From positions 1 through 46,700 of the forward strand of contig WLQG01000007.1 in the NCBI GenBank assembly GCA_009698445.1: a stretch of 46,700 nucleotides of DNA, written 5' to 3'. The notes under the pieces are model-generated. The model was not told where the DNA came from, ran no database searches, and saw nothing but the letters and a program-made list of their open reading frames with translations. Origin of the DNA: Actinomycetota bacterium. Lineage in GTDB: Bacteria; Actinomycetota; Actinomycetes; Nanopelagicales; Nanopelagicaceae. Positions 44,257 to 46,412 of this stretch are shown in pieces. How positions within the stretch are numbered: position 1 is the first letter of the stretch; each line of letters starts with the position of its first letter. The translations under genes were made by a program, and so were the position numbers.

Positions 44257-45696
44257 ATGCGTAGAGCAAAGATTGTGTGCACGATGGGTCCAGCAGTTGA
44301 ATCTCCTGAAAAAGTTAAGGAGCTCATTGATGCTGGCATGAATATGGCTCGACTTAATCTTTCTCACGGTTCATACGAAGAACATCAAGGTCGCCTTGAT
44401 CGCGTGCGTGCTGCAGCAAAAGCTGCGGGTCGGCCAGTGGCAATCCTTGTGGATTTACAGGGACCAAAGATTCGCCTTGCTCGCTTTAAAGCGGGTCCTC
44501 ATGATTTAGCGCGTGGAGATATTTTCACAATTACAACTGACGATGTCGAAGGAACAAAAGAGCGCGTTGGAACGACATACAAGGGGTTACCGGGGGATTG
44601 CAAAGCCGGAGATCGTATTCTTATCGACGATGGAAAAGTTACAGTCGAAGTTGTCGAAGTAAAAGGAAATGACGTTGTAACTAAGGTCATTGAGCCAGGT
44701 GCAGTTAGCAATAACAAAGGAATCAACTTGCCAGGTGTAGCTGTATCGGTTCCAGCCCTGTCAACAAAAGATATTGATGATCTTCGCTGGGGGCTGCGAG
44801 CAGGTGCAGATTTTATTGCGCTCTCATTCGTGCGAAGTGCCGAAGATATAAAAGATGTCCATAAGATTATGGACGAAGAAGGAATTCGTGTTCCAGTAAT
44901 TGCCAAAATTGAAAAGCCGCAGGCAGTTGAAAATCTTGTAGGAATCGTTGAAGCTTTCGATGGCATCATGGTGGCTCGCGGAGATCTCGGCGTAGAGCTC
45001 CCAATTGAAGACGTTCCGTTGGTACAAAAGATGTGTGTTGAACTTGCCCGCGATATGGCCAAACCAGTAATCGTTGCTACACAGATGCTTGATTCCATGA
45101 TTACAAACTCACGTCCAACACGCGCCGAAGCCACAGATTGTGCAAATGCTGTCCTTGATGGCGCAGATGCGTTGATGCTTTCTGGCGAAACAAGTGTGGG
45201 CGAATTTGCAATTGAGGCCGTTGAAACAATGGCCCGCATTATTCAAAAGACTGAAGAAGGTGGACTAGACCGAATCCGCCCAATCAAAACTCCACCTCGC
45301 ACTAAGGGTGGCGCAATAACAAAAGCCGCTACAGAAGTTGGCGCAATTGTTGGTGCTAAGTATTTAGTTGCCTTTACACAAAGTGGCGATTCAGCCCGCC
45401 GAATGTCACGTCTGCGTTCCCCTATTCCAATTCTTGCAATGACGCCAGATTCGGGTACGTACAACCGATTAGCACTTTCGTGGGGCGTTGAATCTATGTT
45501 GACGCCCGTTGTTGGTGCAACCGATGAGATGGTTAAGTTAGTCGATAGCGTTTTGATCGATTCTGGTCGTGCGAGTAAAGGTGACGAAGTAATGATTGTT
45601 GCTGGATCACCTCCTGGAATTCCAGGCTCAACGAACGCGATGCGCGTTCACCGCGTAGGAGATGCAGTTGGTGGAGTGGCTGCGGCTTACCGCTAA
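44257..45696 (+). CDS. pyk: Pyruvate kinase
   Basis: Pyruvate kinase makes pyruvate and ATP from phosphoenolpyruvate and ADP, the last step of glycolysis. The 479-residue product shows RAKIVCTMGPA, MNMARLNLSHG, ILVDLQGPKIRL, and the catalytic signature IAKIEKPQAVEN with the active-site lysine. MVARGDLGVE and VIVATQMLDSMI follow. The C-terminal domain (about 345-479) is complete. It is 9 bp after gltD and is followed by the tRNA and an ANTAR regulator, a grouping also found in larger actinobacterial genomes. Confidence 0.97.
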   Translation: MRRAKIVCTMGPAVESPEKVKELIDAGMNMARLNLSHGSYEEHQGRLDRVRAAAKAAGRPVAILVDLQGPKIRLARFKAGPHDLARGDIFTITTDDVEGTKERVGTTYKGLPGDCKAGDRILIDDGKVTVEVVEVKGNDVVTKVIEPGAVSNNKGINLPGVAVSVPALSTKDIDDLRWGLRAGADFIALSFVRSAEDIKDVHKIMDEEGIRVPVIAKIEKPQAVENLVGIVEAFDGIMVARGDLGVELPIEDVPLVQKMCVELARDMAKPVIVATQMLDSMITNSRPTRAEATDCANAVLDGADALMLSGETSVGEFAIEAVETMARIIQKTEEGGLDRIRPIKTPPRTKGGAITKAATEVGAIVGAKYLVAFTQSGDSARRMSRLRSPIPILAMTPDSGTYNRLALSWGVESMLTPVVGATDEMVKLVDSVLIDSGRASKGDEVMIVAGSPPGIPGSTNAMRVHRVGDAVGGVAAAYR

Positions 45697-45724
45697 GATT
45701 GCCTCCGTTGACATATCGCTAAAG

Positions 45725-45797
45725 GCCTCGGTACTCCAACGGTAGAGAGGGCAGTCTCAAACACTGCACAGTGTCGGTTCAAATCCGACTCGGGGCA
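45725..45797 (+). tRNA. tRNA-Leu (anticodon CAA), short variable loop
   Basis: A 73 nt cloverleaf: acceptor GCCTCGG pairs with TCGGGGC (two G-U pairs), discriminator A73, no encoded CCA. The D arm is CTC, loop CAACGGTAGA, GAG, with A14, A15 and GGTAGA as in leucine tRNAs. The anticodon stem is GCAGT/ACTGC with loop CTCAAAC, giving anticodon CAA (45758-45760) for UUG. The T arm is GTCGG TTCAAAT CCGAC. The variable region is only ACAGT (45768-45772), a class I loop, whereas leucine tRNAs are normally class II with a long variable arm. Identity as Leu rests on anticodon, D arm and A73. Confidence 0.88.
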
Positions 45798-45836
45798 CGA
45801 TATTTAGTAAGTCATCTGCGAAAGGTTAAATGAGAA

Positions 45837-46412
45837 ATGAACGTTCGTATTCTCGTCGCAGAAGATGAGGCACTTATCCGTATGGATCTTGTAGAAATGT
45901 TGCAAGGTGCCGGTTATGAAGTTGTTGCTCAAGCTACTAATGGTCAAGAAGCAATAGATTTGACTAACAAACATAAACCAGATTTAGCAATCCTCGATGT
46001 CAAGATGCCCATCCTCGATGGAATATCTGCAGCTGAAAAAATTATTGATTTAGCTCCAGTTTTAATGTTGACCGCATTTTCTCAAAAAGAACTGATTGAA
46101 CGAGCTCGCGATGCTGGCGTCATGGCATACGTTGTTAAACCATTTACTATTGGTGATTTAGTTCCTGCAATTGAAATAGCAATTAGCCGTCACACACAAA
46201 TGAAATCATTGGCTGCAGAAGTTGCCGATTTACACGATCGACTTGAAACTCGTAAAATCATTGACCGAGCTAAAGGTATTTTAATGAAGGCGCTTAATCT
46301 CTCAGAACCTGACGCATTTTCCTGGATTCAAAGGGCGGCCATGGACCGCAGATTGTCGATGAAGCAGGTGGCGCAGGCAGTAATTAGCCCGGATGCGGTG
46401 CCAGAGGGCTAA
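45837..46412 (+). CDS. pdtaR: ANTAR-domain response regulator, PdtaR-like
   Basis: The 191-residue protein has an N-terminal receiver domain with acidic residues in AEDEAL, the phosphoacceptor aspartate in LAILDVKMP, and switch residues in MLTAFS and VVKPFT. A coiled linker (about 125-140) follows, then an ANTAR RNA-binding domain (RKIIDRAKGILMKALNLSEPDAF, quoted only in part here). ANTAR proteins bind paired hexaloop hairpins in mRNA leaders and prevent termination. The order pyk-regulator matches that of PdtaR in other Actinobacteria. No histidine kinase is adjacent; the expected partner PdtaS must be elsewhere. Confidence 0.93.
   Translation: MNVRILVAEDEALIRMDLVEMLQGAGYEVVAQATNGQEAIDLTNKHKPDLAILDVKMPILDGISAAEKIIDLAPVLMLTAFSQKELIERARDAGVMAYVVKPFTIGDLVPAIEIAISRHTQMKSLAAEVADLHDRLETRKIIDRAKGILMKALNLSEPDAFSWIQRAAMDRRLSMKQVAQAVISPDAVPEG

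Follow-up and report, generated by a model that had tools for sequence, protein, structure and literature searches.

According to a 2023 review, tRNA-Leu carries a long variable arm in all organisms save animal mitochondria. The arm is dispensable for E. coli LeuRS, which requires A73, A15-U48, G18G19 and A20a, and human mitochondrial tRNA-Leu(UUR) is charged without it (PMC9976931). Bacterial class II tRNA-Leu, represented by E. coli, by the actinobacterial CUN readers and by long actinobacterial CAA forms, has a variable arm of 13-16 nt together with G9 and G13. Among mycobacteria, PMC11541572 gives long loops for M. tuberculosis tRNA-Leu-2, 3 and 5, and PMC6582537 describes a leucine tRNA with a short variable loop, the tRNA-Leu(TAG) of a tRNA cluster in the M. 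mucogenicum clade. The latter is an extra gene of the cluster, while the loop of the chromosomal TAG gene is called normal and larger by its authors.

We describe a tRNA-Leu(CAA) gene in an actinobacterial window of 46,700 nt (the whole stretch of DNA that was analysed). It shares the leucine anticodon, A73, A14, A15-U48, the 3-bp D stem and GGYAGA with bacterial class II tRNA-Leu, and the pyk/pdtaR locus with long actinobacterial CAA genes, but it has a variable loop of 5 nt, A9 and C13. Animal mitochondrial tRNA-Leu(UUR) likewise reads UUR codons without a long arm, with A73 and A14 as identity elements (PMC9976931); the short form differs from it in being bacterial, in its stable stems, in a presumably unrelated origin, and in a LeuRS that would serve class II tRNAs as well.

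Structure of the tRNA gene

The gene is the sole tRNA gene of the window (45725-45797). It and its neighbours are arranged as follows.

44257..45696, + strand: pyk (pyruvate kinase), the upstream gene by which the conserved locus is recognized (tblastn synteny)
45725..45797, + strand: class I (short variable loop) tRNA-Leu(CAA) gene (ARAGORN, Rfam, covariance model R1 at 80.3 bits)
45734..45750, + strand: leucine-type D arm with 3 bp, C13.A22, A14 A15, G18 G19 and GGTAGA (sequence; comparison with 76 distinct short forms)
45758..45760, + strand: anticodon CAA, reading UUG (sequence, ARAGORN)
45768..45772, + strand: variable loop ACAGT, positions 44-48, 5 nt, class I length; U48 pairs with A15
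45797..45797, + strand: discriminator A73 (sequence; A73 is common to all Leu tRNAs compared)
45837..46412, + strand: pdtaR-like response regulator, the downstream gene by which the conserved locus is recognized (synteny)

ARAGORN calls tRNA-Leu(caa) at 45725-45798, and the Rfam tRNA model matches the gene over its full length (50.2 bits, E 6e-8). Parsing of the sequence gives an acceptor stem GCCTCGG/TCGGGGC with two G-U pairs inside, T8 A9 between acceptor and D arm, a D arm CTC-CAACGGTAGA-GAG of 3 bp with a C13.A22 mismatch, an anticodon stem GCAGT/ACTGC with the loop CTCAAAC, and a T arm GTCGG-TTCAAAT-CCGAC. All stems are intact and CCA is not encoded. Parse, ARAGORN and Rfam together confirm the original prediction of a complete cloverleaf with anticodon CAA, A73 and a variable region of 5 nt. 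With ACAGT, this region falls within class I length (4-5 nt) and below the 10 nt at which a class II arm begins. The usual class I D stem of 4 bp with a 13-22 pair is lacking, C13.A22 being present in 76 of 76 aligned short forms; these may adopt an alternative pairing of C13 with a G and a bulged A. Between pyk and the tRNA, a -35-like hexamer TTGACA lies at 45708-45713, with no obvious -10 ahead of the gene.

A distinct family of short leucine tRNAs

Related short forms are characterized by A9, C13, A15-U48 or G15-C48, the variable loop N-CAG-Y and A73, and they also have T8, A14 and C13.A22. A9 and C13 occur throughout the intact short forms; the only exception in the short set is a Bacillota gene truncated by Ns. 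Long CAA forms share T8 but have G9 in every case and G13 in 44 of 45 (A13 in one). The D arm, which had been described as exactly like that of bacterial tRNA-Leu, is indeed leucine-like (3 bp, AA..GGYAGA), but with A9/C13 instead of G9/G13 it is not exactly the class II form. The 15-48 pair is A-U in 68, G-C in 7 and A-C in 1 of the 76 distinct short forms; G15-C48 was seen at Streptomycetaceae loci and may reflect few events.

When 28 diverse short forms from outside the window's family were aligned, 98.5% of cells paired and 18 of the 21 pairs varied on both sides, values that no shuffle attains. The covariance model R1, built from those 28 sequences and so independent of the window's family, gives 80.3 bits to the window gene and 90.4 to its UAA sister; the best non-leucine tRNA of P. 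versatilis reaches 59.3, and tested long CAA forms score 44-61 bits. A tRNA-Leu(UAA) around 1501-1548 of locus L103 (genome G020) combines the A9/C13 core with an 8-nt variable region and is a possible transition form.

Distribution and the pyk/pdtaR locus

The short-UUR leucine pattern matches at least 154 of 197 genomes of the class and, in a sample of the phylum, at least 77 of 296, families beyond the class among them; both counts are lower bounds, because Streptomyces genes with GGAAGA or GGGAGA in the D loop escaped the GGYAGA pattern used for them. Chance is excluded for the class, because the reversed control pattern gave 0 matches. The class II counterpart matches 60 of the 197 genomes, and many genomes of the class have one UUR isoacceptor short and the other long. 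Genera with the short family include Mycobacterium, Rhodococcus, Streptomyces, Bifidobacterium and Salinispora. The single match in Bacillota (G575) is a class II gene interrupted by Ns in the assembly; it was discarded as a short form, which leaves 0 of 249 genomes there. Eleven of 201 Chloroflexota genomes match, one hit (G760) being unlike a tRNA and most others sharing the loop motif. Judged by these sequences, the short form is widespread in Actinobacteria and rare in Chloroflexota, a class and not a local oddity. The idea of an actinobacterial lineage trait holds for this wide occurrence but not for confinement: matches in Chloroflexota, and in phages whose hosts span several phyla, rule out a restriction to Actinobacteria alone.

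We gathered 80 named loci with PdtaR as bait, and tRNA-Leu(CAA) lies near PdtaR in almost all actinobacterial loci fetched. The CAA gene is short in Planktophila, Mycobacterium, Rhodococcus, Amycolatopsis, Kutzneria, Kitasatospora, most Streptomyces, Bifidobacterium, Geodermatophilus, Blastococcus, Salinispora, Catellatospora and Actinomadura, and long in Arthrobacter, Microbacterium, Propionibacteriaceae, Nocardiopsis, Planotetraspora, Streptomyces aculeolatus, Streptomyces sp. CB01881 and Acidimicrobiia. The comparison of CAA tRNAs at pyk-pdtaR that the original prediction had proposed thus shows short and class II forms alternating there with the same anticodon. Two records, named Sphaerisporangium cinnabarinum ATCC 31213 (L130) and Cellulosimicrobium sp. 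(L131), share one tRNA-Leu(CAA) sequence and a near-identical PdtaR, and the first may be misnamed.

Leucine tRNAs of the window genome and its relatives

The window genome (1.34 Mb, 67 contigs) also encodes a UAA leucine tRNA whose loop is 5 nt long; its UAG and GAG leucine tRNAs are class II. Its CAA gene is 96-100% identical across 12 genomes of the genus. In the complete genome of Ca. Planktophila versatilis MMS-IA-79 (NZ_CP016774.1), which belongs to the same genus, 38 tRNA genes were counted. The CAA and UAA genes are single and both have a 5-nt variable loop; the CUN readers are class II (UAG, 82 nt; GAG, 85 nt). No further UUR reader is present among these 38, and the class II UUR pattern was found in 0 of 18 genomes of the window's family, the window's own included. 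A class II tRNA-Leu(CAA) beside the short one, a point raised from the outset, is accordingly missing from these genomes; absence of other UUR readers is firmest in the relatives, the window genome being 85% complete. A tRNA-like segment (L037, G000:C45:7822-7917) scores under the Rfam cut-off; its 5' part, with the anticodon loop CTTTTAA, looks intact, but a 3' half to match is missing, and it is a probable tRNA remnant.

A similar division occurs in mycobacteria. In a mycobacteria-like genome (G152) CAA and UAA are short and GAG, UAG and CAG are long, and both UUR genes of Mycobacterium asiaticum are short. The long loops given in PMC11541572 imply that the remaining M. tuberculosis leucine tRNAs are short, in agreement with our mycobacterial data.

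Leucine identity and decoding

The window tRNA has the leucine anticodon CAA and, from the identity set of PMC9976931, A73, A14, A15-U48 and G18G19; A20a is kept as well. Of the 435 leucine codons in five genes of the window, 186 are UUA or UUG. UUR residues were masked prior to alignment with E. coli proteins, and at well-aligned positions E. coli has leucine in 27 of 59 UUR sites (46%), compared with 47 of 91 CUN sites (52%), 21% for AUG and 14-16% for Val/Ile codons; the test rests on about 60 sites. One full-length LeuRS gene is present. UUR codons of window genes fall on E. coli leucine positions, and in complete P. versatilis the short CAA and UAA tRNAs are their only readers, so that leucine is almost certainly the amino acid of both.

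The alternatives that bear on this assignment are a wrong isotype, that is, a tRNA-Met or other alloacceptor with a shifted anticodon, and a non-functional relic. The class I shape would suit another isotype, and the window CAA is 68% identical overall to short Leu(UAA) and 63% to Met and Asn tRNAs. However, Leu(UAA) is its nearest body in the P. versatilis set, genes of the window type are the only ones with a CAA anticodon, UUR sites are leucine sites, and R1 places the window gene 21 bits over the best non-leucine P. versatilis tRNA. We rejected a wrong isotype on these grounds and consider it very improbable. A pseudogene is, if anything, slightly less credible still: we found nothing in its favour, and against it stand intact stems maintained by compensatory change, the high identity within the genus and the lack of a second CAA gene in complete P. 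versatilis, so that it too was rejected.

From sequence comparison we are thus highly confident that the window gene encodes a working leucine tRNA with anticodon CAA, a member of a separate class I family. Leucine identity as first proposed is supported by the sole-reader census, the leucine sites in proteins and the R1 scores. What we observed directly for this family is its structure and conservation, the covariation in its core, its locus, the leucine sites in proteins, a single LeuRS and, in complete P. versatilis, no additional UUR reader; from this we infer leucylation itself and the contacts with LeuRS. Recognition would rely on A73 and A14, on the Levitt pair 15-48, on G18 G19 and on the A after G19-Y20, with no need for the long arm. 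The short CAA tRNA would read UUG and, with its short UAA sister, cover all UUR leucine codons; CUN codons would be left to ordinary class II tRNA-Leu, both kinds being charged by one LeuRS. Having A73 and no arm, the short form is expected to be a poor SerRS substrate. Because A15-U48 is an identity element in E. coli, yet some Streptomycetaceae short forms have G15-C48, actinobacterial LeuRS may differ from the E. coli enzyme.

Copies in phages and a plasmid

With a mycobacterial short tRNA-Leu as query, 186 phage records were matched. Sequences were parsed from phages of Lactobacillus, Streptomyces, Synechococcus, Salmonella, Mycobacterium and Enterococcus, and from a Ruminococcus albus plasmid. 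All of these copies are leucine tRNAs of class I, mostly with the same core and an N-CAGT-type loop; their anticodons are CAA, UAA, UAG or CAG, and they score 65-84 bits with R1. Phage genes such as those of Lactobacillus LP65 and Bacchae, Salmonella SB18, Mycobacterium Shnickers and Streptomyces Francob share A9, C13 and this loop type and are mostly annotated as plain tRNA-Leu; unlike the chromosomal short form, they also include CUN anticodons. A tRNA-Leu(GAG) of Shnickers (L276 391-464) is class I too, its loop being TGCGT (5 nt); its D arm differs and its family-model score is lower. The plasmid, pRUMAL01 (L274 219-376), is a Bacillota plasmid with short-loop Leu tRNAs CAA (6 nt, TTTATT) and UAA (GTAGT), and its gene table contains no RNA genes.

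The Omegaviruses Courthouse (L278 2501-2544) and Thibault (L279 2501-2554) carry an unannotated stretch of 44-54 nt that corresponds to the 3' half of mycobacterial short tRNA-Leu(CAA) and lies beside a tyrosine integrase. This stretch is probably the attP core, which would make the mycobacterial tRNA-Leu(CAA) gene a probable attB.

Origin of the short form

The original prediction saw a leucine tRNA that has lost its variable arm. The arm is absent, but its loss is too simple an account, as the core differs too and the form changes many times on the tree; gene replacement is at least as likely. Whichever of the two applies, the leucine reading is unaffected. We favour replacement and hold it to be the probable course of events: a class I lineage from phages or other elements, or a copy of the short UAA gene, would repeatedly have displaced the class II CAA gene, sometimes with the reverse exchange. 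When short and long labels were mapped on a PdtaR tree of 82 loci, at least 13 changes at this one locus were obtained, 7 of them forced by well supported branches, compared with 26.7 for shuffled labels; the exact number is uncertain, given the short PdtaR alignment (187 columns) and some long-branched rows. L156 (short) and L206 (long) are closely related: their DNA matches from pdtaR to just before the tRNA, then diverges over most of the tRNA gene and its 3' flank.

An unlikely, though not negligible, course is repeated deletion of the arm in place from class II tRNA-Leu(CAA), with convergent A9/C13 restoring class I packing. Locus and anticodon are identical in short and long forms, as deletion would have it, and the UAA gene with the 8-nt variable region and A9/C13 core looks intermediate. 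Deletion, however, needs identical core changes and the N-CAG-Y loop many times over, and L156 and L206 differ across most of the molecule. The core and loop are common to short CAA and UAA, which independent deletions would hardly give, and replacement has further support in the phages of multi-phylum hosts that hold the same family at 65-84 bits (59 for the best other P. versatilis tRNA) and in the Omegavirus copy at the integrase, the probable attP. Against replacement, the exchange could have run either way, sequences as short as tRNAs give no reliable gene tree, the phage copies could come from hosts, and attB integration usually restores the 3' end only, without a whole-gene swap. Replacement remains the favoured reading. 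More tentatively, and as a proposal that may well prove wrong, class I tRNA-Leu could be a separate mobile lineage of phages and Actinobacteria that repeatedly took over chromosomal UUR reading, partly via the tRNA locus of phage integration.

Implications

Literature searches through open-access text found no paper on class I tRNA-Leu as a bacterial class. The novelty left in question at the start therefore stands for the class, which is apparently undescribed, and not for the genes, which are already visible in annotations as tRNA-Leu. Assuming leucine charging, short UUR leucine tRNAs contradict the rule of the 2023 review, which would be broken for UUR leucine tRNAs by mycobacteria, rhodococci, many Streptomyces, bifidobacteria and freshwater Actinobacteria. 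Software is affected as well: tRNA-seq-tools hard-codes a variable region of 13-22 nt for Leu (PMC6297222), and tools of this kind are expected to overlook or misassign short tRNA-Leu.

Because one enzyme must charge both kinds, these bacteria would offer a natural test of the features that LeuRS reads. The short form also matters for mycobacterial LeuRS as a target of drugs and for toxins such as MenT3, which discriminate among tRNAs by their variable loop (PMC11541572). If the mobile lineage is real, an essential tRNA class would have been exchanged many times during bacterial evolution.
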